This document shows, one piece after another, positions 1,838 through 41,187 of a stretch of DNA of 64,000 bases. The stretch comes from Cyclobacteriaceae bacterium (lineage in GTDB: Bacteria; Bacteroidota; Bacteroidia; Cytophagales; Cyclobacteriaceae). Position numbers and translations under genes: made by a program. Below the pieces are notes generated by a model, which was given only the letters and a program-made list of their open reading frames with translations, was not told the origin of the DNA and ran no database searches. The stretch is taken from NCBI GenBank assembly GCA_019694875.1, contig JAIBBC010000002.1, positions 434,001 to 498,000 of the forward strand, given 5' to 3'. Every line of letters starts with the position of its first letter. The stretch's first letter is position 1.

Positions 1838-1841
1838 ACCT

Positions 1842-2225
1842 ATGAAGATTCGATTATTTTTTTTGAAGACAGGATGGATGCTAATCATCGTGGGCGGATT
1901 GCTAGGCGGATGCTACTACGACAACGAAGAATCGCTGTATGGTATTACCACGTGTGACTCCACGTTTGTTTCAACGTTCAGCAACGATGTGCTTCCGCTG
2001 CTCGAAACATACTGTAACCGGTGCCATGCGGGTAGTTCACCCTCAGGTGACATTTCACTCGATACCTACAGCAACGTAACGAATTATGTAAGTAATGGAA
2101 GCCTGATGGGCAGTATCAAACATGACCCCGGTTTTAAAGCGATGCCGGAGGGTGGTGGAAAATTAAGTCCGTGCGACATAAAAAAGATTCAAAGCTGGAT
2201 CGATGCAGGTGCAGCCAACAATTAA
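1842..2225 (+). CDS. Small cytochrome c lipoprotein
   Basis: About 127 residues. The start at 1842 is chosen because it directly precedes a basic N-terminus and a hydrophobic stretch ending in LLGGC, a good lipobox; the in-frame ATG at 1815 lies inside the upstream gene. The mature part has one heme c motif, CNRCH, and a candidate Met axial ligand in FKAMPEG. It ends in IQSWIDAGAANN, which matches the end of the preceding protein (ISKWIDAGALDN). The protein is therefore probably a mono-heme periplasmic electron carrier anchored to a membrane by lipid. It lies 4 bases after the preceding gene and 13 before the YceI gene, so all are one operon. Confidence 0.78.
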   Translation: MKIRLFFLKTGWMLIIVGGLLGGCYYDNEESLYGITTCDSTFVSTFSNDVLPLLETYCNRCHAGSSPSGDISLDTYSNVTNYVSNGSLMGSIKHDPGFKAMPEGGGKLSPCDIKKIQSWIDAGAANN

Positions 2226-2238
2226 ACCTTTTCTTATT

Positions 2239-2790
2239 ATGAAACGAATATTGATGATATGCTTCCTGACAAGCATGAGCAGTGCATTGTTTTCGCAGAC
2301 ACTGTTTATGACAAGAAGCGGCCAGATTTCTTTTTTCTCGAAAACATCCGTGGAAAACATCGATGCAGTCAATAATGAAGTGACGAGTATTCTCAATACC
2401 GGAACCGGAGAAGTTGTTTTTGCCGTGCTGGTAAAAAGTTTCCGCTTCGAGAAAGCGCTGATGGAAGAACACTTCAATGAGAACTACATGGAGTCAGACA
2501 AATTTCCGAAAGCAACCTTTCAGGGCAAGATCACAAATCTGGCGTCAATCGATTTTGCAAAAGATGGCTCTTATCCGGTAACCATTCAGGGCGATCTTAC
2601 CCTGCATAATGTCAAGCAACCGGTAAACGCTTCCGGACAGCTTGAAGTCGGCAACGGCAAATTAATTCTGAAAGGAAATTTTATCGTTACCCTGGCTGAT
2701 TATAAAATCGAAGTGCCATCGCTGGTTACTGAAAAAATTTCCAAAACGATCGACATCCGCGTTAACTGTAATTATGAACCTAAGAAATAA
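2239..2790 (+). CDS. YceI family protein
   Basis: About 183 residues with a signal peptide ending in LFSQ. The body matches the YceI lipocalin-like barrel: GQISFFSKTSVENIDAVNN near the start, FRFEKALMEEHFNENYMES-x-KFPKATF in the middle, and YPVTIQGDLTLHNVKQPV towards the end. YceI proteins bind isoprenoid-like lipids such as polyprenyl pyrophosphate or quinones in the periplasm. The start at 2239 follows the stop of the cytochrome gene by 13 bases. It is the first of three YceI paralogues in the window. Its place between cytochromes and an outer-membrane barrel suggests quinone handling or redox damage control, which is inference. Confidence 0.85.
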   Translation: MKRILMICFLTSMSSALFSQTLFMTRSGQISFFSKTSVENIDAVNNEVTSILNTGTGEVVFAVLVKSFRFEKALMEEHFNENYMESDKFPKATFQGKITNLASIDFAKDGSYPVTIQGDLTLHNVKQPVNASGQLEVGNGKLILKGNFIVTLADYKIEVPSLVTEKISKTIDIRVNCNYEPKK

Positions 2791-3682
2791 GATCATAGTA
2801 TTTGGCATCGGGACGTTAGTAACATTCACCCTTCCTACCTTCGCACAGGACGATCTGATGAAAATGCTGGATGATGAAACAACCGACAAGAACAAAACTG
2901 AATTCACCACGGCAACCTTCAAAACAACGCGGTTAATTAATGGTCACTCGATTGAAAACGTAGCGCTCGGGGTTCTTGATTTCCGGATTTCGCACCGGTT
3001 CGGGTTTATCAGCAGCGGAGCATATGAACTTTGGGGCCTGGACAACGCATCCATGCGGATGGGTTTTGATTATGGCTTAACCAAACGCCTGATGATCGGT
3101 GTGGGCCGCAGTACATATCAAAAGCAATACGATGGATTTGCAAAGTTTAAGGTTTTACGACAGTCTTCCGGAGCGAGAAACATGCCGCTGTCCCTGAGCG
3201 TTGTGGGAACGGTGATGTATAAGTCGCTGAAGTTTGATGACCCAACCCGAACCAATTACCAGAGCTCTAATTTTTATTATTGCGGACAAATCATTTTTGC
3301 GCGCAAGTTTACGGAAGGAATATCGCTTCAGCTGGTGCCTACAGTTGTTCACTACAATTTCGTACCAACAGCTAACGATCCAAACGATCTTTTCTCGCTT
3401 GGCGCGGGAGGACGTTTTAAAATTAGTAAACGCGTGAGTGTAAATGTTGAATATTATTACCAGTTGCCGGCTAATCAGTTTGCGGGAACGTATAACTCGT
3501 TATCGGTTGGCTTTGATGTGGAAACCGGTGGCCACGTATTTCAACTATACATGACCAATTCAACGGGTATGACGGAGCGCACGTTTATTTCTGAAACAAC
3601 AGGCGATTTCTTTAAAGGTGATATCCGGCTTGGCTTTACGATCTCAAGAGTGTTTACGATCCGTAAACCGCGCGTTGATTAA
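2774..3682 (+). CDS. DUF5777 family outer-membrane beta-barrel protein
   Basis: 302 residues with a signal peptide ending TLPTFAQ and a body rich in alternating aromatic strands, as expected for an outer-membrane barrel. The segment ENVALGVLDFRISHRFG, then YELWGLDNASMRMG and YGLTKRLMIGVGRS, is the recognisable core of the DUF5777 family of Bacteroidota. It overlaps the end of the YceI gene by 17 bases and closes the operon. It converges on the VIT-family gene with only 4 bases between stops. The family has no known biochemical function; association with cytochromes and YceI proteins is the only clue here. Confidence 0.75.
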   Translation: MNLRNKIIVFGIGTLVTFTLPTFAQDDLMKMLDDETTDKNKTEFTTATFKTTRLINGHSIENVALGVLDFRISHRFGFISSGAYELWGLDNASMRMGFDYGLTKRLMIGVGRSTYQKQYDGFAKFKVLRQSSGARNMPLSLSVVGTVMYKSLKFDDPTRTNYQSSNFYYCGQIIFARKFTEGISLQLVPTVVHYNFVPTANDPNDLFSLGAGGRFKISKRVSVNVEYYYQLPANQFAGTYNSLSVGFDVETGGHVFQLYMTNSTGMTERTFISETTGDFFKGDIRLGFTISRVFTIRKPRVD

Positions 3683-15484: not shown

Positions 15485-15907
15485 TCAGGGAACCACCAGC
15501 ATCGGAACATGTATATGTTCCAGCAGCTCATCAAGTGATTCGTTGCTGTTGCTCCGCATGGTTTTGTCCATTACTACGAAATCGAGCGGGTTCTTTTTTG
15601 CATGATCTTCAATCCGGTCGGAAATAAAGCCCACCTCAATCTTGAAATCATACGAAATGCCCTCCTTGGCAAGGAGTTCCCGTTCAAGTACCTGAAATTT
15701 TTCGCGCGCTTCCTGCTCAAGAAATTTTTTCTTCAAGATAACCTCATCCGATCGGGGCTGGATAAGACGGTATGTATAGAGTATCGAAAGGTGCGCGCGC
15801 ATGTGCCGGGCCATCGAAACAGCCCATTCAATGGAATGCCGCGTTGATTTCGAGAAATCAATAGTGCATAGTATTGTCTTCACAGTGGATTCGATAGTCG
15901 GCTTCAC
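15485..15907 (-). CDS. Universal stress protein family (UspA-like), no ATP-binding motif
   Basis: 140 residues with the Usp fold: KTILCTIDFSKSTRHSIEWAVSMA at the start, a charged helix, and DFVVMDKTMRSNSNESLDELLEHIHVPMLVV-type end. ATP-binding Usp proteins carry G-x2-G-x9-G-S/T after the fourth strand; here that position reads KTMRSNSNES, so it belongs to the non-nucleotide-binding class or has lost binding. It lies upstream of, and divergent from, the PAS kinase at 16008. A second, truncated Usp-like gene occurs at 39993 beside another signalling cluster. Role: stress survival, unspecified. Confidence 0.8.
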   Translation of the reverse strand: MKPTIESTVKTILCTIDFSKSTRHSIEWAVSMARHMRAHLSILYTYRLIQPRSDEVILKKKFLEQEAREKFQVLERELLAKEGISYDFKIEVGFISDRIEDHAKKNPLDFVVMDKTMRSNSNESLDELLEHIHVPMLVVP

Positions 15908-15964
15908 GAAACAAAACTAAGTCGCAAGACGCCCGTAAAATCCGACTTCGCTCATCCGGAAACA

Positions 15965-15976
15965 TGATTTTTGTCA
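15965..15976. promoter_or_regulatory. Candidate Crp/FNR-type operator upstream of the PAS kinase
   Basis: TGATTTTTGTCA has the TGA-N6-TCA core and ends 31 bases before the ATG at 16008. The 15-mer ACATGATTTTTGTCA (15962-15976) recurs exactly at 27245-27259 upstream of ccoNO. It also contains TTTG 20 bases before TACCTTGT, so part of the match could be a -33 promoter box. Confidence 0.45.
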
Positions 15977-16007
15977 GGTCTTCTAAAGATCAGTACCTTG
16001 TACCTTT

Positions 16008-17258
16008 ATGGAAATGAATCTGCATCCGCTGGTCACCGATGACGCCTTCCGGGAGATTTTCCATAGCATGTCGGAGGGGATCGTTATGGTCGATGAAGCG
16101 GGCATAATTGTTTCCGCTAACCCGATTGCCGAGACAATTTTCGGGTATGACCCGGGCGAACTCACCGGCCTGACCATGGAGGTTCTTGTGCCCCGGGAGC
16201 ATAAAGGACATCACGCAAACCTGCGGAAAGGCTTCAACACACATCCTGAACCCCGCAGAATGGGATTTGGCCGAGATTTGACGGCACTCAAAAAAGATGG
16301 CCGCGAGTTTCCGGTCGAAATCAGCCTTAGCTACACCCGCGTAAAGGGTAAGCTGCTTGTAATGGCCTTTATCAGCGATATCTCAGAGCGTAAAAAGTCA
16401 GAGGAAGCGCTGAAACGGAGCGAAGAACAGCTCATTGTATATGCGGCCGAACTCGAACGCAAGGTGCAGTCTCGCACCGAGGCACTTCATAAAACTATTC
16501 GTGAACTTGAAAAGGAGGTTGTCGAACGTAAACGCGCAGAAGAAGAAACCCGCAAGGCGCTTGAAAAAGAACGCGAGTTCAACGATTTGAAAACCAAGTT
16601 TGTTTCTATTGCCTCACACGAATTCAGAACGCCACTGAGCACCATTCTTAGTTCGATTGCGCTGGTAGAGCAATACAAACAGCGCAATGATCTCGACAAG
16701 ATTGACAAACATACTGCCAGGATACGTTCTTCGGTAGAGCACCTTACTGCCATTCTGAACGATTTCCTGTCGCTCGGCCGGCTTGAAGAGGGTAAAGTGG
16801 AGGTAATAAACGAAATCATTCCGATGGAATCGTTTTTCCAGGATTTGATTGAGGAGGTTAAACCATCACTCAAGAAAGATCAGCACGTAGTGCTTGATAT
16901 GAAGAACGAGACTACGGCTTTTACGGATGTGCGCATTTTGAGGAATATATTATTTAACCTGATTTCGAACGCCAGCAAGTATTCGGAAGAGGGAAAGGAT
17001 ATTGAAATTCACGTAAGTGCCGACACGAAAACATTGGCTATCGCGATTCAGGACCATGGTATCGGCATACCGGAAGAAGATCACAAGCACCTCTTTGAAC
17101 GTTTTTTCCGTGCCGGCAATGTTTCAAACATTCAGGGTACCGGACTTGGTTTGAATATCGTAAAACGTTATATCGATTTATTGAAAGGTGACATCACATT
17201 CGAAAGTGAATACAAGAAAGGAAGTATCTTTACCGTATTAATACCGCTCAATGCATAG
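16008..17258 (+). CDS. PAS-domain histidine kinase, FixL-like PAS
   Basis: 416 residues, no TM segment, so a soluble sensor. One PAS domain (about 10-128), a coiled-coil linker (129-195), HisKA with the phosphorylation site at His204 in IASHEFRTPLSTI, and HATPase with NILFNLISNASKY, DHGIGIPEE and GTGLGLNIV. The PAS contains HKGHHANLRKGF and MGFGRD; His69 and Arg89 align by spacing with the FixL heme ligand His200 and Arg220. This PAS pattern also occurs in kinases not shown to bind heme, so heme is a hypothesis. The gene is followed after 3 bases by a REC-Crp regulator, its probable partner. Confidence 0.88.
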   Translation: MEMNLHPLVTDDAFREIFHSMSEGIVMVDEAGIIVSANPIAETIFGYDPGELTGLTMEVLVPREHKGHHANLRKGFNTHPEPRRMGFGRDLTALKKDGREFPVEISLSYTRVKGKLLVMAFISDISERKKSEEALKRSEEQLIVYAAELERKVQSRTEALHKTIRELEKEVVERKRAEEETRKALEKEREFNDLKTKFVSIASHEFRTPLSTILSSIALVEQYKQRNDLDKIDKHTARIRSSVEHLTAILNDFLSLGRLEEGKVEVINEIIPMESFFQDLIEEVKPSLKKDQHVVLDMKNETTAFTDVRILRNILFNLISNASKYSEEGKDIEIHVSADTKTLAIAIQDHGIGIPEEDHKHLFERFFRAGNVSNIQGTGLGLNIVKRYIDLLKGDITFESEYKKGSIFTVLIPLNA

Positions 17259-17261
17259 GCT

Positions 17262-18323
17262 ATGAAGAAAATTCTCTTAATAGAAGACAATCCTGAGATC
17301 CGGGAAAATACAGGCGAGATTTTATCCCTTGCGGGCTATGAAGTTTCGACGGCCGAGAACGGGAAAACGGGGGTGGATCTTGCGCAGAAAATTAAGCCCG
17401 ACCTGATCATCTGCGATATTATGATGCCCGAGCTTGATGGATATGGCGTACTTCACATCCTAAGCAAGAATGATGAAACTTCGGCTATACCGTTTATTTT
17501 CCTGACTGCGAAAACGGAAAAAACCGATGTCCGAAAAGGCATGACACTGGGAGCGGATGATTACCTCACCAAGCCCTTTGATGATACCGATTTGCTCAAC
17601 ACGATTGAAACGCGGTTGCGCAAGCATGAGCTGCGAAGCAAGCTGTACGACAACACACAGGCCGGTCTTGATCACTTCATCCAGGATGCGCAAAAGGCAC
17701 TTAACCTGGCCGACCTTTGTAAAGACAAGAAGGTTAAAACCTATAAAAAGAAAGCTGAGTTGTTTACAGAGGGCGACTCACCCTCCAATATCTTCTTTCT
17801 CAAATCCGGAAATGTTAAAACATTCAAATCTCACCCGGATGGAAAAGAACTGATCACCAACCTGTACAAAGCGGGTGACTTTTTTGGCTTTGAGCCGTTG
17901 CTGGAGAACAAAGCTTACCAGGACACCGCTGTTGCACTGGAAGACACCGAAGCAATACTAATTCCGAAAAGCGATTTTCTTATCCTGCTTAACAGTCAGG
18001 CTGATGTGTCGGCAAGTTTTATTTCGCTGCTGTGCCGCAAAGTTTCCGAAAAGGAAAGCCAACTTGTTAACCTGGCATACAATTCTGTTCGTCAGCGTAC
18101 GGCAGAGGCTTTACTGAAAGTGAGCGAGCTCACCGAAGGAAAAGAGAAGATCAGTATTTCGCGCGAAGATTTAGCCAAGATCGTGGGTACGGCTTCCGAA
18201 TCTGTTATCCGCGTTCTTTCCGACTTTAAAGATGAAGGCCTGATAGAAATTGAAAGCGGCAAGATTAAAGTTCTCAATCGCGGAAAGCTTGAGAAAGTTG
18301 TGCGCTGGAGTGTTGCACGCTAG
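17262..18323 (+). CDS. Response regulator with REC, cNMP-binding-like and Crp HTH domains
   Basis: 353 residues. REC domain (1-122) with the acceptor Asp52 in LIICDIMMPELDG and conserved Lys in DDYLTKPFDD. A Crp-type beta-roll (about 150-265) contains LFTEGDSPSNIFFLKSGNVK and GDFFGFEPLL. A Crp/FNR helix-turn-helix (about 275-345) contains ISREDLAKIVGTASESVIRVLSDF. In the recognition helix, Glu and Arg (SESVIR) match the E. coli CRP/FNR pair that reads TGA. No Cys set for an FNR Fe-S cluster is seen. It therefore looks like a phosphorylation-controlled Crp protein paired with the PAS kinase 3 bases upstream. Confidence 0.9.
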   Translation: MKKILLIEDNPEIRENTGEILSLAGYEVSTAENGKTGVDLAQKIKPDLIICDIMMPELDGYGVLHILSKNDETSAIPFIFLTAKTEKTDVRKGMTLGADDYLTKPFDDTDLLNTIETRLRKHELRSKLYDNTQAGLDHFIQDAQKALNLADLCKDKKVKTYKKKAELFTEGDSPSNIFFLKSGNVKTFKSHPDGKELITNLYKAGDFFGFEPLLENKAYQDTAVALEDTEAILIPKSDFLILLNSQADVSASFISLLCRKVSEKESQLVNLAYNSVRQRTAEALLKVSELTEGKEKISISREDLAKIVGTASESVIRVLSDFKDEGLIEIESGKIKVLNRGKLEKVVRWSVAR

Positions 18324-18325
18324 CG

Positions 18326-18895
18326 CTACAAAGGCCGGATCAGTAAATTAAATTCAACGTTCAGATCGTCCTGCACTTTTACCAGGCCCATCATCCGTTC
18401 GGGCGCATGCAATTGAAAATCATTGAAGCAAACGCTGTGCTTCCCCGCCAGTTGAATAAAGCTACCTTTCGGCACCAGCTCAAATTGCACATTTACTTTT
18501 TTGGTTACGCCTGCGAGCGTAATATCTAATGCAGCTGTAGCCTTTGTGCCTGAGGTGTGTTTATCGAGCGTGACAAACGAAACCACGAGATAGGGATTCT
18601 TTTCGGCCTTCAGGGTATTGCGAAAATCTTTTGTGATGAGGCTGTTTCCGCAGTTGAAGTTGTATACCGGAATGATCATTTTATTAGCCTCGAAGGAAAG
18701 CTGTCCGTTTTCCCTGTTGTGTTCATAGATCAGCGTGTCAACACTGTTGTAGCAACTGATGAAGCAGGTAAAGGAGTTAACATTGGTTTGGCCGTGAATG
18801 GAAAGCTGGCTGTTGTAGTCGATAACCCATTTACCCCGTTCAACCCCGGTTGCTGCGGTTAGTGTAAGGAGACTTAAAAGAACCAGATATTTCAT
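18326..18895 (-). CDS. YceI-like family protein
   Basis: 189 residues with a short signal peptide and a YceI-type barrel: GKWVIDYNSQLSIHGQTNVNSFTC, then a central segment, and AALDITLAGVTKKVNVQFEL. It is more divergent than the other two YceI proteins in the window, with four or more Cys in the mature part (for example SFTCFISCYN), which could form disulfides. It lies downstream of the porin gene on the same strand, but a strong intrinsic terminator occupies the gap. Ligand unknown; isoprenoid or lipid binding is known for the family. Confidence 0.72.
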   Translation of the reverse strand: MKYLVLLSLLTLTAATGVERGKWVIDYNSQLSIHGQTNVNSFTCFISCYNSVDTLIYEHNRENGQLSFEANKMIIPVYNFNCGNSLITKDFRNTLKAEKNPYLVVSFVTLDKHTSGTKATAALDITLAGVTKKVNVQFELVPKGSFIQLAGKHSVCFNDFQLHAPERMMGLVKVQDDLNVEFNLLIRPL

Positions 18896-18905
18896 ACGGT
18901 TATCA

Positions 18906-18937
18906 GAAAAAGAAAGAGCTGCCTGAGCAGCCCTTTC
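18906..18937 (-). terminator. Intrinsic terminator after the porin gene
   Basis: On the minus strand an 11-base stem (GAAAGGGCTGC with GCAGCTCTTTC, one G-U pair) closes the tetraloop TCAG and is followed by TTTTT. It lies between the porin stop (18950) and the start of the divergent YceI gene (18895), so the latter probably has lower or independent expression. Confidence 0.72.
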
Positions 18938-18949
18938 GTGAGATTTATT

Positions 18950-20356
18950 TTAGAAGGCGATTATTCCCTGTAACACGAAGCCGCTAAACTTGGCGTCTTC
19001 CAGTATGTTACCCGTTGGGAAGTCGTTGTACTTCTGCGTTACATATTCACCTTTTACCAGAATGTTTGGTGTTACAAACCAGCCTGCAGCGAACGCTGTG
19101 CGATTAACGGAGATATCTTCGCGTGTTCCCTGGCTTATACCGGCTGGCTGTGTTGTGTTCGTTGCTTGTCCAAATACCTGTTCACCCTTAACCTGGTTAT
19201 AGCGTGCGCCCAGGTAGTACTGTTCGCGTGCGCCAAAGCGATAGAGCAGGTCAACTGCAAGTTGGGTGAACTTGCGATCGTCTTGCTTATCGAATTTAGT
19301 AGGGTCGATCGCGGTGGTATTGTATTGGATTTCGCCACTTTCCACTGCATTTTTTCCTTTTGCAACCTCATAAGTTCCGAAGAATTCGAGCCCGCCTATT
19401 TTAACAAACGGGTTGATTACGAAAGTGGTCACGTTATCCTTAAAGTTAGGGTTAAGACGGCCGGAGAATGCATTGGCAGTTACGGATGCACCGGTAGGTT
19501 CGGTCACAAACTGGTAGTTAGAGCCGGTGCGGTCACCACCAAACAAGGTACCGTTGACAGATGATTTCTTGGTCAGGAATGATCCGGTAATCCGAATGCG
19601 ATTGTTTTCGCCAAAAGGTTTGTCGTAACCAATTTTTCCATAGATAGACGGAGCACGTTTTGAACCGTTTTTATCTGTTCCGGCTATGCTGCGTTCTGCC
19701 ACGCTGCCCTGAATTTCACCGTTGGTTGCTGCAGCCATTAACAACATTCCGTCTTTCTGCCAGTATAATTCAGCACCAATTTCAGTGGTGAAGGCGTCCA
19801 TGATGTTGTTTTCAATGAACGGGTTCCAAAAGGTGTTACCGCCATCGCTTCTGCGGAAGTGTGCATCACCATAATTGATTTCCATATGACCGATTTTCAG
19901 GGTCAGGTTTGTCCACAGTTTGTCCATGAATTCGCTGTTCAGGAAACTAACTTTATCGATTTGAAAGTACCCGCCCTTAACCCAGAATTCGTTGTGGTGG
20001 TGTGAAGCCATGTATGAAACCAGACTTACCCGAACACCGTCAGCAATTTGTACATCGATGTTCAGGTTTGCCTGAGCCAGCGGGAAACCGCCTTTCATGT
20101 AGTACAGCTTCTGAGCAGCAATTTCATCCTTATTGCTATGCTTCAGATTCTGATAACCTTGTGTGAAGTTTGCCCCGAGGCGAACCTTAAAGCCATCAAA
20201 CTGAACGGTATCAACTTTCGAAGTTTCGAAAACATTCAGACCACGCTGGTCGTAAGGACGGAAGTATTGGATTTCGCCCCGTTGCGCCCGGGCGAGTTGT
20301 GCAGTTACCAGGAGTGCCATAGTGACTGCCAGGCTAAGAATAGGTAAGCGTTTCAT
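18950..20356 (-). CDS. Outer-membrane porin-like beta-barrel protein
   Basis: 468 residues with a signal peptide ending QLARAQ. The mature part consists of alternating amphipathic strands with frequent aromatic residues (NLTLKIGHMEINYGDAHFRR, LFGGDRTGSNYQF, ILVKGEYVTQKYND) and ends in a strand closing with Phe, as outer-membrane barrels do. I do not recognise a specific family; similarity to phosphate-selective or general porins is plausible. It follows the YceI gene at 20399 by 42 bases on the same strand and is followed by a terminator. The pairing with YceI proteins suggests uptake or surface handling of a lipid-like or redox-active compound, which is speculation. Confidence 0.62.
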   Translation of the reverse strand: MKRLPILSLAVTMALLVTAQLARAQRGEIQYFRPYDQRGLNVFETSKVDTVQFDGFKVRLGANFTQGYQNLKHSNKDEIAAQKLYYMKGGFPLAQANLNIDVQIADGVRVSLVSYMASHHHNEFWVKGGYFQIDKVSFLNSEFMDKLWTNLTLKIGHMEINYGDAHFRRSDGGNTFWNPFIENNIMDAFTTEIGAELYWQKDGMLLMAAATNGEIQGSVAERSIAGTDKNGSKRAPSIYGKIGYDKPFGENNRIRITGSFLTKKSSVNGTLFGGDRTGSNYQFVTEPTGASVTANAFSGRLNPNFKDNVTTFVINPFVKIGGLEFFGTYEVAKGKNAVESGEIQYNTTAIDPTKFDKQDDRKFTQLAVDLLYRFGAREQYYLGARYNQVKGEQVFGQATNTTQPAGISQGTREDISVNRTAFAAGWFVTPNILVKGEYVTQKYNDFPTGNILEDAKFSGFVLQGIIAF

Positions 20357-20398
20357 AAGAATGGTATTAAGAGTTATAAAAAAAATGAGTCAGGTTGA

Positions 20399-21007
20399 TT
20401 ATTGTTTTGCTTGTTGGTTGTCGGGTGAAGGTGTCATGGTAAAATCGAAGTTCACCGTAACTTCAGCACCTACAGTTATGGTGCCCATAACCGCTGTCGG
20501 CTGCGTCATCTTAAATTCAGTCATATTGATTTTTTTACTCATGGTAAACTGAATGTCTCCGTTGGGTAGCATGTTTGCCATGCCGCTCAATTTTACAGAC
20601 TTGGATGTTCCGGCCATTTCCAGGTATCCGCTTGCTTCAAAACTGGCTTTACCGGGTTCGAGTTGAGTAACGTGTGCGGCAATCAGCAGGAAGGTTATGT
20701 TTGGATTCTTCTCGTACAGAAAGGCATCGTACGTTTTGTTGTCCATTGTCTTTCCGTGAGCGCTTTTGATGCCGGCAACGGGAATCGTTACTTCGGCTGA
20801 TTGAATTTTCTTAAGCACATTATTCTCAACCACAAGGCGGGTCTTGCAGGTAAGCTGAGAGATTTCTGATTCCCAGTCGTGAAGGGTTGATGTTCCCTGT
20901 ATCGTAGACTTGGATGTCTTAACGATGTATTCCTGTGCGTATAGCGATGCTGACACTGCAAACATTGCAATCGTTAGCAATAGTCCGGTTTTAGTTGAGC
21001 GGTTCAT
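20399..21007 (-). CDS. YceI family protein
   Basis: 202 residues with a signal peptide ending SASLYAQ, then the YceI pattern IVKTSKSTIQGTSTLHDWESEI, an HGKTMDNKTYDAFLYEKNPNITF middle part and a final strand pair ending VTVNFDFTM. The motif TSTLHDWE is the common start of one YceI subgroup in Bacteroidota. It leads a unit with the porin gene 42 bases downstream. Its upstream gap carries a TGA-N6-TCA element at 21082-21093. Function: periplasmic binding of an amphiphilic ligand, as inferred from the family. Confidence 0.87.
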   Translation of the reverse strand: MNRSTKTGLLLTIAMFAVSASLYAQEYIVKTSKSTIQGTSTLHDWESEISQLTCKTRLVVENNVLKKIQSAEVTIPVAGIKSAHGKTMDNKTYDAFLYEKNPNITFLLIAAHVTQLEPGKASFEASGYLEMAGTSKSVKLSGMANMLPNGDIQFTMSKKINMTEFKMTQPTAVMGTITVGAEVTVNFDFTMTPSPDNQQAKQ

Positions 21008-21058
21008 GACGCGTTGATTTAATTTTCAGAAAGGTAGATTGATGCGCATACGCGTTGC

Positions 21059-21128
21059 ATGATAAGCGTAAGGCCTATGAATGATCTTTATCAGTGACTA
21101 AACTGACGTTTACACCGAATGATAAGCG
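21059..21128. repeat. Two direct copies of ATGATAAGCG
   Basis: The 10-mer ATGATAAGCG occurs at 21059-21068 and 21119-21128, exactly 60 bases apart, on either side of the TGA-N6-TCA site upstream of the YceI gene. This could be a pair of sites for an activator, or chance. Confidence 0.3.
21082..21093. promoter_or_regulatory. Candidate Crp/FNR-type operator upstream of YceI-porin unit
   Basis: TGATCTTTATCA has the TGA-N6-TCA core and, as ATGAT-CTTT-ATCAG, matches 8 of 10 positions of the FNR consensus TTGAT-N4-ATCAA. It lies 75 bases upstream of the start at 21007 and 96 bases downstream of the SafE gene stop. Confidence 0.5.
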
Positions 21129-21188
21129 AATGAAATCGCGGTTAACTTCGTGTGATCAATCCAACAAAATGCAAACGTTTGTAATTGC

Positions 21189-21872
21189 TTAGCGGCAAAC
21201 GGTGATGCCGTTTTTATCAACCGGATGGTTGGAATCATGGTGACTATAAAGTGTCCGTGACACGAGCAGGAGGCCCACAAACACCATAGAAAAGGTTGTG
21301 ATCTTACTATAGCTGATATTAAAGTAACTCATCAGTTTCTGAACCAGTGACGTTACGCCCAGCATAACGGGTAGCGTCCCCAAGCCGAAAATGAACATAA
21401 ACAGAAAACCGGTTACTGGCTCTGTGATCGTCACGCAATAGGAGAGAGCCATGTAGGTTAATCCGCAGGGAAGCAGGCCATTTAAAATTCCGGTGGTGAT
21501 TAACGCGGCTTTTGTTTTGCGTTTCATAAAATTACCCAGCCTGATTTTAATAAACGTGGTCAACTTATTGATTCCGGAGGAGATGAACGGCACATTAAAA
21601 CTGGTCATTCCGGCAAAACCCGCAACAATTAACAAGATACCCAGTGTAACGCTAAAAATTCCCTGAAGGCCGGTGCGTTCAAAAACAAATCCAACGGAAG
21701 CTGCAACGATTCCCTGCAGGCCATAGCTTATGATCCTGCCCCCATTATATAAGATCCGGTTGATGAGCGCAGGTTTGCTGAGGTTTGTAACGGCAATCGC
21801 CAACGGACTGCACATGCCCGCGCAGTGGAGGCTGCCTAAAAATCCAATCGCAAGGGCTGTAAGCAATATCAC
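21189..21872 (-). CDS. Sulfite exporter TauE/SafE family protein of the cbb3 cluster
   Basis: 227 residues with about six TM segments. It begins with LTALAIGFLGSLHCAGMCSPLAIAV, the His-Cys-x2-Met-Cys signature seen in SafE-type proteins found beside cbb3 oxidase genes, where they are thought to help copper delivery. A second motif, GILNGLLPCGLTYMALSY, is also typical. It overlaps fixH by 4 bases and ends the oxidase operon. Copper handling for CcoN is the likely role; the family name does not prove sulfite export. Confidence 0.82.
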   Translation of the reverse strand: MILLTALAIGFLGSLHCAGMCSPLAIAVTNLSKPALINRILYNGGRIISYGLQGIVAASVGFVFERTGLQGIFSVTLGILLIVAGFAGMTSFNVPFISSGINKLTTFIKIRLGNFMKRKTKAALITTGILNGLLPCGLTYMALSYCVTITEPVTGFLFMFIFGLGTLPVMLGVTSLVQKLMSYFNISYSKITTFSMVFVGLLLVSRTLYSHHDSNHPVDKNGITVCR

Positions 21873-22294
21873 AGGTTAACAATTTCTTCCTGGTAATAGT
21901 CTTTTCCGTTCATGGTCCAGAAAAGTTTAACACGATACATTCCGCCCGCCAATCCGGACAGGGCGGTATCGAATTCGCGCTGATCGGGTGTTAACGCAAA
22001 TTTGCGATCCATACGTGCATTGGAAGGACAAAACAGCTGCAACTCACCCTGCTGAACGTGCTGTGTGCTGTCGAATGTAACTTTCATGGCATTCAGCGTA
22101 GCAACAATTACAGGCTTTTGACCGAGCGATTCTGTGTTTTTCATACGTTCGATCTGATTCTGGTAAACCAGTTCCTGTTTATAGTAATCGGCCGACACCA
22201 GGCTCATTTCCTGCCGCATGCACACAACAACCAATGCTCCGATAAATCCTGCGAAGAGCACGAACGAGACAAAAATCCATTTTCCGGGGTTCAT
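21869..22294 (-). CDS. FixH-like cbb3 assembly protein
   Basis: 141 residues with one N-terminal TM segment (about 6-28) and a small periplasmic domain. The stretch VSADYYKQELVYQNQIERM after the TM is the typical FixH element, and the C-terminal part holds strands of an Ig-like fold ending YRVKLFWTMNGKDYYQEE. FixH/CcoH helps assemble cbb3-type oxidase. It lies 1 base after ccoG and overlaps the SafE gene by 4 bases. Confidence 0.82.
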   Translation of the reverse strand: MNPGKWIFVSFVLFAGFIGALVVVCMRQEMSLVSADYYKQELVYQNQIERMKNTESLGQKPVIVATLNAMKVTFDSTQHVQQGELQLFCPSNARMDRKFALTPDQREFDTALSGLAGGMYRVKLFWTMNGKDYYQEEIVNL

Positions 22295-22295
22295 A

Positions 22296-23771
22296 TTATT
22301 TACGTTTTGCGTCTGAGGCTTTATGTACAGGGCCGATAAATTTTGCTTTTACCGTTTCAATTCTTTTTCCGTTGCTGTAGATGCCGAGCTTAACCACGGT
22401 GCGCGCATTTGTTATGGAATGTTCAGGTATTCGGATGAAATACACGCCCTTTGTGAAGCCTTCGGCCGGTACCAGAATGGCTTTGGCATCTGCTTTTCTT
22501 ATCTCCGCTTCTGCGGGGGATTCTACGCGTATCTCGAGATTACGCGCTTCAAATGTTTTGTTAACAAATTCTACATTGTAGAGATTGGTGATGTAATCGC
22601 CATCGCGCTGATATAATGTTCCGGGCACTTTGAGAATGGTGGCTTCAACGTCCGAACGCGTAATTAGGGCGAAACTGAGCACGCCCAGCAAAATCAGCAA
22701 TACGAAGGAATAACCGATCACGCGGCTGTTGATAATTTTTACGATGCCATTCTTGATGGAGTTATAAGACGCATAGCGAATCAAACCTTTTGGTTTTCCG
22801 ATTTTCACCATTACCTCATCGCATGCATCGATACAGGCGGTACAATTCACACACTCAAGCTGTGTACCGTTGCGGATGTCGATCCCGGTAGGGCATACAT
22901 GTACACAAAGTTTGCAGTCGATGCAGTCCCCCGTATTAGATTGCTCCTGATTTTTTCTGCGGAATCCGCGTGGTTCACCACGCAGCCAGTCGTACGCGAT
23001 AACGATTGAGTCACGAACCAGCAATACGCCTTGGAGCCTTCCGTACGGACAAACTGCCACGCACGCCTGCTCACGGAATTTTGCATACACACCGTAAAAA
23101 ATTCCGGTGAATCCAATCAAACCTATAAAACCCGCCAGGTGTTCGGAAGGCGGCTCATTCAAAATGGCCCATGTTTTTTCGGTGCCGATCAGATAAGCCA
23201 TCACGGTATGCGAAATGAGAACGGATACCGCCAGGAACAAAATATGTTTGGATGTTTTCTTGAGAATTTTTTCCCGATTCCACGGTTGTTGCGTCAGCTT
23301 GCGCTGATCATTTGCATCGCCTTCAATCCAGTATTCAATTTTACGAAACACCATTTCCATGAACAGCGTTTGCGGGCACATCCAGCCGCACCAAACCCGG
23401 CCGAACACGACAGTAAACAGAATGATAAAAACAAAGAAGGTGATCAGGGTTACAGCAAGCAAAAAGAAATCCTGCGGCCAGAAGGCCTGGCCGAGGATTA
23501 CAAATTTGCGTTCGAATACATTTAATAACAGCGCGGGCTGCCCGTTGATCCGTATGAAAGGGCCTGAAAACAGCAGTGATAACAATGCAACCGTCACAAC
23601 AATTCTCCAGCGATGAAAGTTACCGGAAGGTTTTTTTGGATAAATCCAGATACGCTTGCCGGCTTCATCAACCGTTGCAATGCTGTCTCTGAATTCCTCA
23701 CCCGCCAGCTCAACACTTTTTGCCAGCCGCTCTTGCCTGATGTCAAGCTTCACTTCCGATTGCATAGTCAT
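22296..23771 (-). CDS. ccoG: CcoG, cytochrome c oxidase accessory protein
   Basis: 491 residues. Five TM segments are visible: four in the first half and one at about 345-370. Two 4Fe-4S ferredoxin motifs are present: CIDCKLCVHVCP and CVNCTACIDACD. The segment FGRVWCGWMCPQTLFMEMVFRKIEYWIEGD is a strong CcoG/FixG marker, and ACVAVCPYGRLQGVL also fits. The C-terminal part is an IG-like domain. CcoG reduces Cu2+ for insertion of CuB in CcoN. It lies 3 bases after ccoP and precedes fixH. The first ATG is used; ATG at 23765 is also possible. Confidence 0.92.
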   Translation of the reverse strand: MTMQSEVKLDIRQERLAKSVELAGEEFRDSIATVDEAGKRIWIYPKKPSGNFHRWRIVVTVALLSLLFSGPFIRINGQPALLLNVFERKFVILGQAFWPQDFFLLAVTLITFFVFIILFTVVFGRVWCGWMCPQTLFMEMVFRKIEYWIEGDANDQRKLTQQPWNREKILKKTSKHILFLAVSVLISHTVMAYLIGTEKTWAILNEPPSEHLAGFIGLIGFTGIFYGVYAKFREQACVAVCPYGRLQGVLLVRDSIVIAYDWLRGEPRGFRRKNQEQSNTGDCIDCKLCVHVCPTGIDIRNGTQLECVNCTACIDACDEVMVKIGKPKGLIRYASYNSIKNGIVKIINSRVIGYSFVLLILLGVLSFALITRSDVEATILKVPGTLYQRDGDYITNLYNVEFVNKTFEARNLEIRVESPAEAEIRKADAKAILVPAEGFTKGVYFIRIPEHSITNARTVVKLGIYSNGKRIETVKAKFIGPVHKASDAKRK

Positions 23772-23774
23772 ACG

Positions 23775-24815
23775 CTACAGGCTTGCCTGTACTTTAGTGG
23801 TGTCGGCTGCTGCCGGTTCCGGTTTATATAAATCTCCTTGCGCTGCTTTTGGGTTTTCAGGTTTTGTTCCCTGCAAACTCATTACATAGAATGCCACATC
23901 GCGCACATCTTTCGGGCTCATGTTCTTACCCCAGGCAGGCATACCTTTTTCAACAACCCCGTTTTTCACCGTTGTGAAGATGTTTTTGATGCTTCCACCG
24001 TGCAGCCAGTATTCATCCGCCAGGTTCGGACCGATGGCATTTCCACCACCATCTTTTGCATGGCAAGCCACGCAGTTAATGGTGAAAATATTCTGACCGC
24101 TGGTCAGTATTGCTGCATCTTTTTCATATGCGAGCGTGTTTTCATCAATAGCAGCCTGTGGTTGTGAAGCCTGGAATTTCAACGCGGCCTCTTCGGCAAG
24201 CGCAACTTCATTCTGGTACTCCTGCTGCTGTAAGGGAAGATTATCTGAGATGTGGTAAACAAACAGGTAGATTGCGCCCCAAACAACGGTTCCAACAAAC
24301 AACCAGGTCCACCATGGCGGCAGGTGGTTGTCGAGTTCCTTGATGCCATCATAATTATGATCGAGTTCAACGCTGGCTTCTTCTTCAATGGGAACAGAAT
24401 CATTCACTTGTTTCATAAACTTGCTCCACCAGGTTGGACGGGGCTTGTATACTACTCCCCGTTGACGGGCTCTTTCCTTCTCAGCTTCCACGGTAAGCAG
24501 GTTAACTACTTTTACGAGGTAAAAACCTACAAACGCGATCAGCAAAATCATAATGAATATGAGCGTGGTGATCGTATACAGCGGCAGCATTGGACTGTTA
24601 AACGGATCGTCCCAGAACGTGAGCTCTTTCGCTGCATCTTGTGCTGAAGCTGACAACGTGGTTACCAGCAAAAGCGTGAGCAATGCAAGTGACTTAATCA
24701 ATGTGGAATGTTCGCGTTTTTTCTTTTCGCGGCATTCTTTGCATTTGCCGGTGCATTTTTTGGTTGAATCGTTGTCCGGCTTCACGGATTGAATATCGTT
24801 TTTAGGATTACACAT
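23775..24815 (-). CDS. ccoP: CcoP subunit of cbb3 oxidase, single heme c, Cys-rich N-terminus
   Basis: About 346 residues from the ATG at 24815, which overlaps the CcoQ gene by 8 bases. A hydrophobic stretch ending ASAQ (about 38-58) is followed by NDPFNSP-like FWDDPFNSPMLPLY and a TM at 80-100, a second TM near 170-195, and one cytochrome c domain with CVACH and a Met in KGMPAWG. Proteobacterial CcoP usually has two heme motifs; here one is seen. The first 36 residues are unusual: Cys2, Cys21, Cys25 and Cys28 within a basic stretch. An alternative TTG start at 24701 would remove them. The subunit passes electrons to CcoN-CcoO. Confidence 0.87.
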   Translation of the reverse strand: MCNPKNDIQSVKPDNDSTKKCTGKCKECREKKKREHSTLIKSLALLTLLLVTTLSASAQDAAKELTFWDDPFNSPMLPLYTITTLIFIMILLIAFVGFYLVKVVNLLTVEAEKERARQRGVVYKPRPTWWSKFMKQVNDSVPIEEEASVELDHNYDGIKELDNHLPPWWTWLFVGTVVWGAIYLFVYHISDNLPLQQQEYQNEVALAEEAALKFQASQPQAAIDENTLAYEKDAAILTSGQNIFTINCVACHAKDGGGNAIGPNLADEYWLHGGSIKNIFTTVKNGVVEKGMPAWGKNMSPKDVRDVAFYVMSLQGTKPENPKAAQGDLYKPEPAAADTTKVQASL

Positions 24816-25008
24816 GGCGATTAACAGTTTCGGTTGATGATTTGGGAGTTTCGTCATCCATCGGCAATGACTTCATGTACTGAATGAATTTTTTATCCAC
24901 CAGGAAAACATACGCCAGCAGCGTGATGAAGAAGGCAAAAAATATCACGAATGAGATGATGGGCCAAACGGCCACATCAGTCATGCTTTGAAGAACATTT
25001 TTGTACAT
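24808..25008 (-). CDS. ccoQ: CcoQ-like small cbb3 subunit
   Basis: 66 residues with one TM segment (about 14-38, WPIISFVIFFAFFITLLAYVF) and a short cytosolic tail, YMKSLPMDDE. Size, membrane topology and place between ccoNO and ccoP match CcoQ, which stabilises the oxidase complex. The sequence is short, so the call rests mainly on context. It begins 11 bases after the stop of ccoNO and overlaps the ccoP start by 8 bases. Confidence 0.78.
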   Translation of the reverse strand: MYKNVLQSMTDVAVWPIISFVIFFAFFITLLAYVFLVDKKFIQYMKSLPMDDETPKSSTETVNRHV

Positions 25009-25019
25009 AACGGTTCAGG

Positions 25020-27161
25020 TTATTGGTTTACAGCAACTTTTTCAGCCTTTATGTCGGTTCCTAATCGTTGCAGGTACGCAATGACGGCCACAATTTCAGC
25101 ATCACTTGATACTTCAATTCCATCCTTTTTCAGCGAAGCCGTAATTGTTTCAGCCTGCTGTTCGAGTTCAGCATTGGCAGTTTCTTCATAGCCTTCCGGA
25201 TATGGAACACCTACGGTACGCAGTGCAGATATTTTACCTGCTGTTGAGGCCTTGTCGATCGACTGCTCGAACAACCATGGGTAAGCTGGCATGATTGAAC
25301 CCGTTGATACTGCATCGGGAGCCAGCATGTGATTATAATGCCAGGTGTTGGAGTACTTGCCACCCACGCGGTGAAGATCCGGGCCGGTGCGTTTCGAACC
25401 CCAGAGGAACGGATGATCGTAAACAAATTCACCGGATTTTGAGTATTCGCCATAACGCTCAGTTTCTGAACGGAATGGGCGGATCAATTGTGAGTGACAG
25501 CTTACGCAGCCTTCACGAATATAAATGTCGCGGCCCTGAAGCTCCAGCGGAGTGTAAGGCTTGACGCTGGCAATGGTCGGTACGTTGGATTTGATTAAGA
25601 AAGTCGGAACCAATTCGATAACTCCTCCAATCAGGATTGCTACAAGTGCTAACACGGTGAATAACATAGGTTTGTGCTCCAGAAGGCGATAGTGCCAACC
25701 CCCGGTTTTTATCACATAATTCTTAGCAAGCGGTGCAGCTTCTGCCGGTTCGTTTGCGATAAAACTTCCGGCATACGCAGTTTTCACGAGGTTGTAGGTC
25801 ATGATAATTGCACCTGTCAGGTATAACAATCCACCCGTTGCGCGCAGGCCGTGGAGCGGAAGAATCTGAACGGTTGTTTCGAGGAAGTTCTTGTAAACCA
25901 GGAATCCTTCGGGGTTAAATTCTTTCCACATCAGGCTTTGCGTAACACCTGAAACGTACATGGGCAATGCATAGAAAATGATACCCAGCGTTCCCAGCCA
26001 GAAGTGGATGTTGGCCAGTTTTGACGAATACAATTTCGTGTTCCACATGCGCGGAACTGTCCAGTACAGGATGGCAAAGATCAGGAAGCCGTTCCAGCCC
26101 AAGCCACCTACGTGCACGTGTGCTACGATCCAGTCGGTAAAGTGAGCAATCGCGTTAACGTTTTTCAGCGACAGCAGTGGTCCTTCCAGTGTAGCCATAC
26201 CGTACGCGGTGATCGCCACCACCATGAATTTCAGCACGGCATCTTCCCGAACACGATCCCATGCTCCGCGAAGGGTCATCAAACCGTTAAGCATACCACC
26301 CCATGACGGAGCGATGAGCATAATCGAGAACACAACACCCAACGATTGCGCCCAGTCGGGCAAAGTGCTGTATAACAAGTGGTGCGGGCCGGCCCAGATA
26401 TAAATGAAAATCAGCGCCCAGAAGTGAATAATAGAAAGACGATATGAATAAACAGGACGATTGGCTGCCTTTGGCAGGAAGTAGTACATAATTCCCAGAA
26501 ATGGTGTTGTGAGGAAGAATGCTACCGCGTTGTGGCCGTACCACCATTGAACAAGTGCATCCTGAACACCGGCATACCAGGAATAGCTTTTGAAGAATGA
26601 TACCGGCATCTCGAATGAGTTCACAATGTGGAGCACGGCAACCGTTACAAACGTTGCGATGTAAAACCAGATGGCCACATACATGTGGCGCTCACGTCTT
26701 TTAATAATCGTACCGATCATGTTAATACCAAACACAACCCACACGAGGGCGATGGCGATGTCAATCGGCCATTCGAGTTCGGCATACTCTTTTGATGTGG
26801 TGATCCCCAGGGGTAGCGTGATGGCTGCAGCAAGGATGATCAGTTGCCAACCCCAGAAGTGAATCCAGCTCAGCGTGTCGCTGAGCATGCGGGCCTTTAA
26901 CAGGCGCTGCATCGAGTAGTACACGCCCGCAAACATCGCATTGCCCACAAAGGCAAATATGATGGCATTGGTATGCAGTGGCCTGATGCGCCCGAATGAA
27001 ACAAACTGTCCCACGGGTGAGTCTGAGAAATTAAAAATGGGATAAAACAACTGAATGGCGGCTGTAAGCCCCACCAGCATGCCGACCAGTCCGAAAATGA
27101 CGGAGGCAATCATGAAGGCTTTTACGATTTTATTATCGTAACTGAACTTTTCGATTTCCAT
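25020..27161 (-). CDS. ccoNO: Fused CcoN-CcoO subunits of cbb3 cytochrome oxidase
   Basis: About 713 residues from the ATG at 27161; the upstream in-frame start at 27224 adds a region with no family match. The first ~480 residues are the 12-TM CcoN core: FGRIRPLHTNAIIFAFVGNA (heme ligand His), WWYGHNAVAFFLTTPFLG and AGPHHLLY (CuB and heme b3 ligands), and VAHVHVGGLGWNGFLI. The last ~190 residues are CcoO with one TM near 500-520 and a heme c motif EGCVSCHSQLIRP. The fusion is common in Bacteroidota. The enzyme reduces O2 to water at low oxygen. CcoS and the CcoI copper ATPase are not in the window. Confidence 0.93.
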   Translation of the reverse strand: MEIEKFSYDNKIVKAFMIASVIFGLVGMLVGLTAAIQLFYPIFNFSDSPVGQFVSFGRIRPLHTNAIIFAFVGNAMFAGVYYSMQRLLKARMLSDTLSWIHFWGWQLIILAAAITLPLGITTSKEYAELEWPIDIAIALVWVVFGINMIGTIIKRRERHMYVAIWFYIATFVTVAVLHIVNSFEMPVSFFKSYSWYAGVQDALVQWWYGHNAVAFFLTTPFLGIMYYFLPKAANRPVYSYRLSIIHFWALIFIYIWAGPHHLLYSTLPDWAQSLGVVFSIMLIAPSWGGMLNGLMTLRGAWDRVREDAVLKFMVVAITAYGMATLEGPLLSLKNVNAIAHFTDWIVAHVHVGGLGWNGFLIFAILYWTVPRMWNTKLYSSKLANIHFWLGTLGIIFYALPMYVSGVTQSLMWKEFNPEGFLVYKNFLETTVQILPLHGLRATGGLLYLTGAIIMTYNLVKTAYAGSFIANEPAEAAPLAKNYVIKTGGWHYRLLEHKPMLFTVLALVAILIGGVIELVPTFLIKSNVPTIASVKPYTPLELQGRDIYIREGCVSCHSQLIRPFRSETERYGEYSKSGEFVYDHPFLWGSKRTGPDLHRVGGKYSNTWHYNHMLAPDAVSTGSIMPAYPWLFEQSIDKASTAGKISALRTVGVPYPEGYEETANAELEQQAETITASLKKDGIEVSSDAEIVAVIAYLQRLGTDIKAEKVAVNQ

Positions 27162-27247
27162 AGCGTGAGTGCAGCGGTTAAGGTTATTTTGCGATAAAAG
27201 TAAAAGCGCGAAAAAAGGCTGCATATGATGGGTGTTAGATGGTTACA

Positions 27248-27259
27248 TGATTTTTGTCA
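27248..27259. promoter_or_regulatory. Candidate Crp/FNR-type operator upstream of ccoNO
   Basis: TGATTTTTGTCA has the TGA-N6-TCA core and centres about 92 bases before the ccoNO start (27161). Flanking bases make an exact 15-mer match (ACATGATTTTTGTCA, 27245-27259) with the site in front of the PAS kinase/REC-Crp pair. No good TTTG / TAnnTTTG promoter was found between site and gene. Confidence 0.5.
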
Positions 27260-34990: not shown

Positions 34991-35014
34991 TTTGTCAATG
35001 AAATCGTTGACAAA
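34991..35014. repeat. Inverted repeat upstream of the multi-PAS kinase
   Basis: TTTGTCAA (34991-34998) and TTGACAAA (35007-35014) form perfect 8-base arms with an 8-base spacer, 15 bases before the FNR-like site at 35029. It is a candidate operator for a dimeric regulator. Confidence 0.45.
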
Positions 35015-35028: not shown

Positions 35029-35042
35029 TTGATCTCGATCAG
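35029..35042. promoter_or_regulatory. FNR-like box upstream of the multi-PAS kinase
   Basis: TTGATCTCGATCAG matches TTGAT-N4-ATCAA at 9 of 10 defined positions and has the TGA-N6-TCA core. It ends 44 bases before the ATG at 35087. Best single FNR-like match in the window. Confidence 0.55.
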
Positions 35043-40308: not shown

Positions 40309-41040
40309 TTATTTTTTTCCGGGCGTTTGCTTGCCCATGAAGTTAGCTTCTGCAATAACTCCTTCACGATCGATGATCCGGACCGAATTGCTCGTGGTTT
40401 GAATCAGGTTTTTTTGTTTGAACTCTTTCAGCAGGCGAACCAGCGTTTCTTTTGCCGTGCCTGTCATGTTGGCTAAGTCGGTGCGCGATAACATGATGTC
40501 AACAGCATCTGTTTTCTTTCCGTCCCTAAACTTTTCCTCCAGCATGAGTAAGTTAAACGCCAACCGTTCACGAACATTTTTTGTGGCGAGGTTAGTGAAA
40601 CTGTCTATGAACCCGCTGAATTCAAGTCCAAGAAGCTTTAATAACCGGTTCGACAGGGCAGAAGAGCGGCTCAGTACGCCAAGAAATGTTTCTTTCGAGA
40701 TGAAGGTTATCTCAGATGTTACCAATGCAGCCGTTGAATCGGAATACCGTTCCTCGCTCAGCAAGGCATGATAGCCGAGCAGCTCACCTTCTGCACAGAT
40801 GTAGATAATTTGTTCCGCGCCAGTAGCGGTTGTCTTGTATTTCTTGACCTTCCCGCTTTTAATGTGAAAAACACCCGTGGGAATTCCTCCTTCGCGGAAA
40901 ATAATTTCACCTTTTCGAAAGACGTGCGTAGCGCCTTCGCTTAATAACTTATTGATCTCTTCCGGGGGTAATCCTTCAAAAAGCTGCTTGGCCTTGAGCC
41001 TGGAGTTTCCTGGGGGAAAGTTGGTTAACATGTCGGCCAA
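40309..41040 (-). CDS. Crp/Fnr family transcriptional regulator
   Basis: 243 residues: beta-roll (about 20-135; HVFRKGEIIFREGGIPTGVFHIKSGKV, then GELLGYHALL), a long dimer helix, and a full HTH (about 170-230; LSRTDLANMTGTAKETLVRLLKEF). In the recognition helix KETLVR keeps the Glu and Arg that bind TGA in CRP and FNR. No cluster of four N-terminal Cys is seen, so oxygen sensing by an FNR-type Fe-S cluster is unlikely. A TGA-N6-TCA site lies in its own promoter, suggesting autoregulation. Confidence 0.88.
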   Translation of the reverse strand: MADMLTNFPPGNSRLKAKQLFEGLPPEEINKLLSEGATHVFRKGEIIFREGGIPTGVFHIKSGKVKKYKTTATGAEQIIYICAEGELLGYHALLSEERYSDSTAALVTSEITFISKETFLGVLSRSSALSNRLLKLLGLEFSGFIDSFTNLATKNVRERLAFNLLMLEEKFRDGKKTDAVDIMLSRTDLANMTGTAKETLVRLLKEFKQKNLIQTTSNSVRIIDREGVIAEANFMGKQTPGKK

Positions 41041-41074
41041 TAAAATTCGGCAACAAGGTATACAACGGGGTCAA

Positions 41075-41101
41075 CAAAGATATTGACTTTTATCAATCAA
41101 A
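41075..41101 (-). promoter_or_regulatory. Candidate promoter with Crp/FNR-type operator in the spacer
   Basis: On the minus strand a -7 box TATCTTTG (41075-41082) fits TAnnTTTG exactly, and TTTG (41098-41101) lies 15 bases upstream, slightly shorter than usual. Between them sits TTGACTTTTATCAA (41083-41096 as read on +), which matches TTGAT-N4-ATCAA at 9 of 10 positions. A bound protein would block the promoter, consistent with autorepression of the Crp gene at 41040. An adjacent perfect repeat, CAATCAA-AAAA-TTGATTG, covers 41094-41111. Confidence 0.5.
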
Positions 41102-41187
41102 AAATTGATTGTTTTTAAAGTAAAATCACAGAGGAACTCCGGTGGGTTTATCAATAACCGGTCATTCCGTTTAGTACAGAGTTGCTG

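Follow-up and report, generated by a model that had tools for sequence, protein, structure and literature searches.

A 22-bp tandem Crp/Fnr-type operator upstream of ccoNO and its candidate alternating regulators in Bacteroidota

The window analysed in this study, a 64,000-base stretch of a 4.68-Mb Cyclobacteriaceae genome (GenBank assembly GCA_019694875.1, contig JAIBBC010000002.1, positions 434,001 to 498,000; G000:C3:434001-498000 in our survey), carries on its reverse strand a ccoNO fusion gene of the cbb3 oxidase (25020–27161), a universal stress protein (Usp) gene (15485–15907), a YceI-domain gene (20399–21007) and a Crp/Fnr gene (40309–41040, hereafter Crp 40309). Its forward strand holds a cytochrome/YceI operon (709–3682), a soluble PAS histidine kinase (16008–17258) and, directly after the kinase, a response regulator in which a receiver is fused to a Crp protein (REC-Crp, 17262–18323). 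A first-pass annotation had noted the palindrome TGA-N6-TCA, the Crp/FNR operator core, in six gaps upstream of redox or signalling units. Comparison across loci and genomes indicates that this motif is one half of a larger tandem operator of predicted Crp/Fnr type, with centres 22 bp apart, standing before a TAnnTTTG promoter box. The case is comparative throughout, resting on site, spacing, box, gene content, co-occurrence and conserved residues.

All six sites are present, with the coordinates of one corrected from 35031–35042 to 35030–35041; the sites at 15965 and 27248 do share an exact 15-mer, ACATGATTTTTGTCA, and no further gap of at least 30 bases in the window holds a match. The expectation that the motif would be denser in gaps than in coding or shuffled DNA was borne out, but coding DNA, left uncounted before, also holds many bare matches. 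The window contains 35 copies (dinucleotide shuffles: mean 21.5, s.d. 4.7; 35 reached in 2 of 100), of which six lie in gaps of at least 30 bases (3,753 bases in total) and 29 in called open reading frames (ORFs). This last count makes the bare motif too weak as evidence and speaks for an origin of the sites as chance or structural palindromes. Density is nonetheless higher in gaps than in the rest of the window (Fisher one-sided p = 0.015), and the six gap sites exceed chance: first-order Markov gap sets held a mean of 1.34 copies and reached six in 1 of 2,000 sets. The pattern TGAYNNNNRTCA occurs five times in gaps and five times elsewhere in the window (p = 1.4e-4); a reversed-pattern control for it (495 versus 123) was unmatched in composition, and we place no weight on it.

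To look beyond the window we fetched the best 80 of at least 573 loci encoding REC-Crp relatives, which bear mostly Bacteroidota names, many of them Cytophagales; the nearest, among the matches listed, is a Cyclobacteriaceae metagenome-assembled genome whose REC-Crp is 97% identical. With no motif preselected, 1,088 gapped palindromes (64 trimers × 17 spacers) were screened in the promoter-facing gaps of these loci (108,522 bases). TGA-N6-TCA was the most enriched by a wide margin, with 242 copies against 34.1 in the mean of ten dinucleotide-shuffled sets and 43.6 scaled from coding DNA, and several runners-up (GAC-N4-GTC, CTG-N8-CAG, ATG-N8-CAT, GAT-N4-ATC) represent this word read in other frames. 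The site consensus is [AC]TGA[TC]-WWWW-RTCA[GT], its core frequently AAAA.

When the 112 sites with an A-rich core at these loci were turned with that core forward, a second TGAY-N4-RTCA emerged exactly 22 bp downstream, with TGA at position 23 in 41 sites and TCA at position 32 in 46 (mean over positions about 3), followed by a TAnnTTTG element at positions 58–65 of the logo. In Flavobacterium psychrophilum, according to the available text of PMC9723704, this sigmaA box lies at −12 to −5; by that placement the site centres therefore fall at about −63.5 and −41.5, the inner one at the class II Crp/FNR position relative to the predicted transcription start. In single-direction gaps the core points towards the gene at 81 of 114 sites.

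The geometry recurs without a score matrix in the upstream regions of ccoNO, sampled from a survey of 197 genomes of the window's class. We fetched these regions from 73 other genomes with both REC-Crp and ccoNO, together with 40 from 39 of the 40 ccoNO-only genomes (G020 twice; G178, where a contig end cuts ccoNO, was left out). Among 98 sites in 68 upstreams from genomes with REC-Crp only, TGA recurs in 40, TCA in 50 and TAnnTTT at position 58 in 26; the 24 upstreams from genomes with only an FNR-type Crp (defined below) hold 35 sites, with 14, 18 and 12, respectively; and upstreams from genomes with neither hold 11 sites, with TGA at 23 in three and TCA at 32 in two. In the window genome, TGAYNNNNRTCA-N10-TRAYNNNNRTCA with up to two mismatches has 43 forward matches against 22 for the reversed-pattern control. 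All six window sites are among the matches listed. Seven places have no more than one mismatch, six of them in C3:455-518 kb, an island that starts in the window and continues rightward. A 22-bp partner with at least 6 of the 8 key TGAYNNNNRTCA bases accompanies 5 of the 6 gap sites, versus 2 of the 29 other window copies. The single palindrome had thus been rightly taken for a Crp/FNR-type site, a view now strongly supported by gap enrichment, tandem geometry and matrix-free recurrence, but its nature as one of a tandem pair had been missed. These same results, with the Markov test of the window, leave chance or structural palindromes a highly improbable explanation.

Three promoters in the window, all on the reverse strand, show the arrangement most fully. 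Upstream of ccoNO, a distal site TGACAAAAATCA (27248–27259) stands 22 bp from a proximal site TAACACCCATCA (27226–27237), followed by the −7 box TACTTTTA (27195–27202) and a predicted transcription start at 27190. The longest-ORF start of the gene, 27224, would include both box and predicted start, and we moved it to 27161 because the sequence there matches the (Met) starts of orthologs. The site at 15965 had been assigned to the kinase/REC-Crp pair; that target was rejected in favour of the Usp gene, by the direction of the second site and the box. Here the distal site TGACAAAAATCA (15965–15976) faces Usp, with a degenerate proximal site TGAGCGAAGTCG (15943–15954) and the box TAGTTTTG (15912–15919); the predicted transcription start (15907) falls on the GTG called as start codon, and translation should therefore begin further into the gene. 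Facing the YceI-domain gene are a distal site TGATAAAGATCA (21082–21093), a proximal site TTACGCTTATCA (21060–21071) and a box TACCTTTC (21029–21036), with a predicted start at 21024.

As with YceI and ccoNO, the earlier assignments to the cytochrome operon and to the Crp gene hold, with weaker boxes. The crp promoter, on the reverse strand, has a strong proximal site TGATAAAAGTCA (41084–41095), a weak distal site TAAAAACAATCA (41106–41117) and a partial −7 box TACCTTGT (41053–41060), and the cytochrome/YceI operon, on the forward strand, has a weak distal site TGAAGAATATCA (623–634), a proximal site GGACTAAAGTCA (645–656) and a partial box CAAATTTG (680–687). For the palindrome TGATCTCGATCA at 35030–35041, which has no assigned strand and had been given to a multi-PAS kinase, we found no convincing partner or box, with 5 of the 8 key TGAYNNNNRTCA bases at 22 bp. 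Just upstream of the same kinase lies an inverted repeat, TTTGTCAA-N8-TTGACAAA (34991–35014), possibly the site of another regulator.

The genes behind the operator recur across the 80 loci. TGA-N6-TCA stands in the gene's own gap before ccoNO at 26 of 36 ortholog loci (ccoNO lies inside the fetched DNA in 39 of the 80), before Usp in 19 of 26 gaps and before the kinase in 24 of 48, the last two often being the same divergent gap. It precedes REC-Crp itself in 1 of 10 gaps, and was found before none of ccoP (0/32), ccoG (0/15), FixH (0/5) or DsbD_2 (0/3). The 78 genes behind strong composite sites include 22 ccoNO, 17 Usp, six radical SAM, four CcoI-like ATPase and three HSP20 genes; among 78 controls drawn at random from the 264 genes that had no good site, ccoNO and Usp are both missing from the 25 families listed, and eight genes are ccoP. 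To the right of the window, the island (C3:498001-520125) carries three Usp genes behind composite sites, one of them followed on the same strand by copper-type ATPase and acetyl-CoA hydrolase/transferase genes; a beta-CASP gene also lies in this continuation. Elsewhere in the genome, at C1:320001-360000 (L106 and L107), TGAYNNNNRTCA-type sites whose second sites are poor lie near a norB-like gene (L106:12352-14679), nadA and two Crp genes with LRVE in the helix, and possibly form a separate regulon related to nitric oxide (NO).

The protein proposed to bind the operator in this genome is REC-Crp. Across 81 sequences its Asp52, Lys104 and the Glu and Arg of the recognition helix are invariant, giving it the receiver domain, phospho-acceptor Asp and conserved Lys of a response regulator, and CxxC is found in none of the 81 Crp parts. 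A homolog of the kinase is present at 70 of the 80 loci and directly upstream of REC-Crp at 67; among solved structures its PAS domain best matches FixL (2cmn, E = 2.9e-15). The aligned haem His is kept in 68 of 71 kinases, and the window kinase has His69 and Arg89 at haem-pocket positions, which we take to act as haem ligand and distal Arg as in FixL-like PAS domains. At a presence cut of E ≤ 1e-40, with the partial matches in G033, G142 (both without ccoNO) and G054 (with ccoNO) scored as present, REC-Crp occurs in 99 of the 197 genomes, ccoNO in 114 and both in 74 (Fisher odds ratio 4.3, p = 1.6e-6, uncorrected for kinship). In G054 the REC-Crp is split over two overlapping frames (C1:1599614-1600661). 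One locus from a record named Alphaproteobacteria (L042) has, beside its REC-Crp, a kinase identical to that of Runella L044 over the 38 residues compared, and is possibly a misbinned contig.

A search with Crp 40309 revealed a stand-alone Crp gene about 3–8 kb from ccoNO in many genomes that lack REC-Crp. Twenty Crp genes were fetched: 16 of this kind, near ccoNO in REC-negative genomes, one in G152 at 28 kb, and three near ccoNO in REC-positive genomes. CxxC is present in 19, in which C9, C12, C58 and C111 are invariant; the twentieth, L249, lacks the cysteines and was excluded from alignment A1. These exchange partners carry the four cysteines of FNR and are predicted to hold a 4Fe-4S cluster, and their recognition helix, GT[AS]TE[TSA]-IRL, is close to that of REC-Crp. 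Presence of the FNR type in the 197 genomes is scored by profile, the cysteines having been read in the 20 fetched genes only. Reading of the seven Crp proteins in the window genome turned up no N-terminal CxxC; Crp 40309, whose helix is GTAKETLVRLL, contains one Cys. A tree places the REC-Crp and FNR-type Crp domains on two sides with supports of 92/98 and 82/84, both below the starred level. The REC side also takes in, by a very long branch, three other Crps of this genome; Crp 40309 joins the FNR side on a long branch. Both placements are unsure. Crp 40309, which thus groups with the FNR-type Crps without having their cysteines, is possibly a sensor-less descendant of them.

The two regulators tend not to co-occur where ccoNO is present. 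Among the 114 ccoNO genomes, 69 have REC-Crp only, 24 the FNR type only, five both and 16 neither at E ≤ 1e-93, a headline cut picked after the data had been seen (odds ratio 0.048, p = 1e-9); the corresponding counts are 63/30/11/10 at 1e-85 (p = 3e-10) and 54/34/20/6 at 1e-75 (p = 3e-9). This alternation could reflect shared ancestry by clade, with some third, common factor as the reader of the operator. The exclusion across the full set of 197 genomes is weak at the loosest cut (p = 0.15 at E ≤ 1e-75; 0.003 at 1e-85; 2e-4 at 1e-93), the 'neither' group is small and kinship was controlled at the level of taxonomic family only, all of which lend this explanation some weight. Stratification by family nevertheless leaves an odds ratio of 0.046 (p = 8e-4) in the ccoNO genomes, 8 of the 38 ccoNO-bearing families sampled contain both REC-only and FNR-only members, and the operator itself follows the presence of any regulator after the same stratification (odds ratio 11.8, p = 0.043). 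We therefore regard shared ancestry with a third factor as quite unlikely.

The operator was scored upstream of ccoNO with a matrix and a threshold of 20 or more; the matrix was trained on REC-Crp loci, and it is therefore the matrix-free test above that carries the argument. The score is reached in 47 of 73 REC-positive and 20 of 40 REC-negative upstreams. The latter figure excludes REC-Crp as the sole explanation of the operator, and therefore as its only reader. By regulator class (1e-93 cut), the operator is found in 44 of 68 REC-only, 19 of 24 FNR-only, three of five double and one of 16 'neither' upstreams, that is, in 66 of 97 with either regulator versus 1 of 16 with none (p = 3e-6); at the two looser cuts the 'neither' class comprises 6 and 10 upstreams, with the operator in one each time. 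None of 565 Markov-shuffled upstreams reached 20. On the reverse strand of the real upstreams 11 of 113 did so, the behaviour expected of a near-palindromic pair.

In the window genome Crp 40309, or another of the seven Crp/Fnr proteins, might be the main reader, with REC-Crp acting elsewhere and merely lying near cco. Crp 40309 falls on the FNR-type side of the tree, has a similar helix and a site before its own gene, and the operator also occurs in genomes without REC-Crp. Set against this, the genus mates G014 and G191 keep both the operator (scores 38.0 and 34.2) and REC-Crp, and in neither was an FNR-type alignment match found at E ≤ 1e-55; the contrast between REC-only and 'neither' genomes likewise argues against Crp 40309 or another of these Crps. 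We judge such a reader unlikely, and REC-Crp to be most likely the protein predicted to bind.

Our favoured reading, which we hold to be probable, is a tandem operator read in this genome by REC-Crp under the FixL-like kinase and elsewhere by an FNR-type Crp. From the comparisons above we infer binding, activation and the direction of regulation, phosphotransfer, haem, the iron–sulfur cluster and oxygen as the signal. Two Crp/Fnr-type dimers would sit side by side on the same face of the DNA, their centres separated by 22 bp (about −63.5 and −41.5), and the inner one, next to RNA polymerase in the class II position, would activate transcription. As oxygen falls, the adjacent soluble kinase would phosphorylate Asp52 of REC-Crp, which would then bind and activate the promoters of the ccoNO, Usp, YceI, cytochrome, CcoI-like and crp genes. 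Of the best operator matches, most lie within a single island of about 84 kb. In families without REC-Crp, the stand-alone four-Cys Crp, with its near-identical recognition helix, would read the same operator.

Several observations weigh against this reading. The core orientation opposes the gene at 33 of the 114 sites in single-direction gaps, and the 35030 site probably lies outside the system. At ccoNO, 24 of the 68 REC-only upstreams score under 20; G089 and G118, of the same family, have an FNR-type-like Crp (E ~1e-86) without the operator; the 'neither' genome G086 keeps it; and a single TGAYNNNNRTCA is still found in 9 of the 16 'neither' upstreams. The window genome encodes seven Crp/Fnr proteins, of which Crp 40309 could read the sites jointly with REC-Crp or in its place. 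Lastly, the haem-pocket Arg, present in the window kinase, is kept in just 39 of 71 kinases, so the ligand may differ.

This last point also favours a variant that keeps operator and regulator but has a signal other than oxygen (for instance NO, CO or redox state), or in which the bound protein represses. NO and CO are further ligands of haem PAS domains, and the norB-like gene of this genome lies near similar single sites. Class II placement, by contrast, favours activation, the targets are a high-affinity oxidase and Usp, and, in the available text of PMC9723704, cbb3 is strongly induced under oxygen limitation in the F. psychrophilum transcriptome. We consider this variant somewhat unlikely.

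More tentatively, and as something close to an even call, the promoter may be a fixed socket in the sampled Bacteroidota, into which a 4Fe-4S FNR or a haem-PAS kinase with REC-Crp has been plugged repeatedly as operator and core target stayed. The analysis provides, for oxygen control of the Bacteroidota cbb3 oxidase, a specific operator, a predicted start site and a pair of candidate regulators; we found neither a regulator nor an operator for this control in the open-access literature, and the main text of PMC9723704 contains neither 'Fnr' nor 'Crp'. It also offers a natural experiment in how a regulon keeps its operator while the sensor is exchanged, and bears on the benefit of phosphorelay sensing over a direct iron–sulfur sensor. 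A fused REC-Crp route to cco, the 22-bp tandem and within-family alternation in Bacteroidota were likewise not found in the open-access literature, which does not prove their absence.

Among known systems, FixL–FixJ–FixK of rhizobia, which controls fixNOQP, comes closest in its logic, with one tier more. It shares with the present system a haem-PAS-type kinase, a phospho-receiver, a Crp/Fnr protein that lacks the cysteines of FNR and a cbb3 target. In rhizobia a separate FixJ activates the fixK gene, whereas here receiver and Crp are one protein standing for both FixJ and FixK, the transcriptional tier is absent, and the promoter, of Bacteroidota type, carries a tandem operator with 22-bp spacing. 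The FNR/FnrN anaerobox, TTGAT-N4-ATCAA, has the same TGAY-N4-RTCA core, and four-Cys relatives of FNR, with a helix nearly identical to that of REC-Crp, occur in many genomes without REC-Crp; the operator described here differs in its flank (A or C instead of T) and its tandem geometry, and the window genome's Crps differ in having no N-terminal CxxC. Class II Crp/FNR promoters likewise have a centre at about −41.5, to which the present promoters add a conserved dimer site 22 bp upstream and the TAnnTTTG sigma element. Replacement of the sensor on one operator is already known from Alphaproteobacteria: the available text of PMC7888657 has FixK and FnrN sharing the anaerobox in Rhizobium leguminosarum, and that of PMC4999443 proposes that FnrN was replaced by FixLJ–FixK on existing sites in Caulobacterales. 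As far as those texts describe them, these cases share with ours two oxygen-sensing routes on one operator class; ours lies in another phylum, with a fused REC-Crp and with both states inside single ccoNO families.

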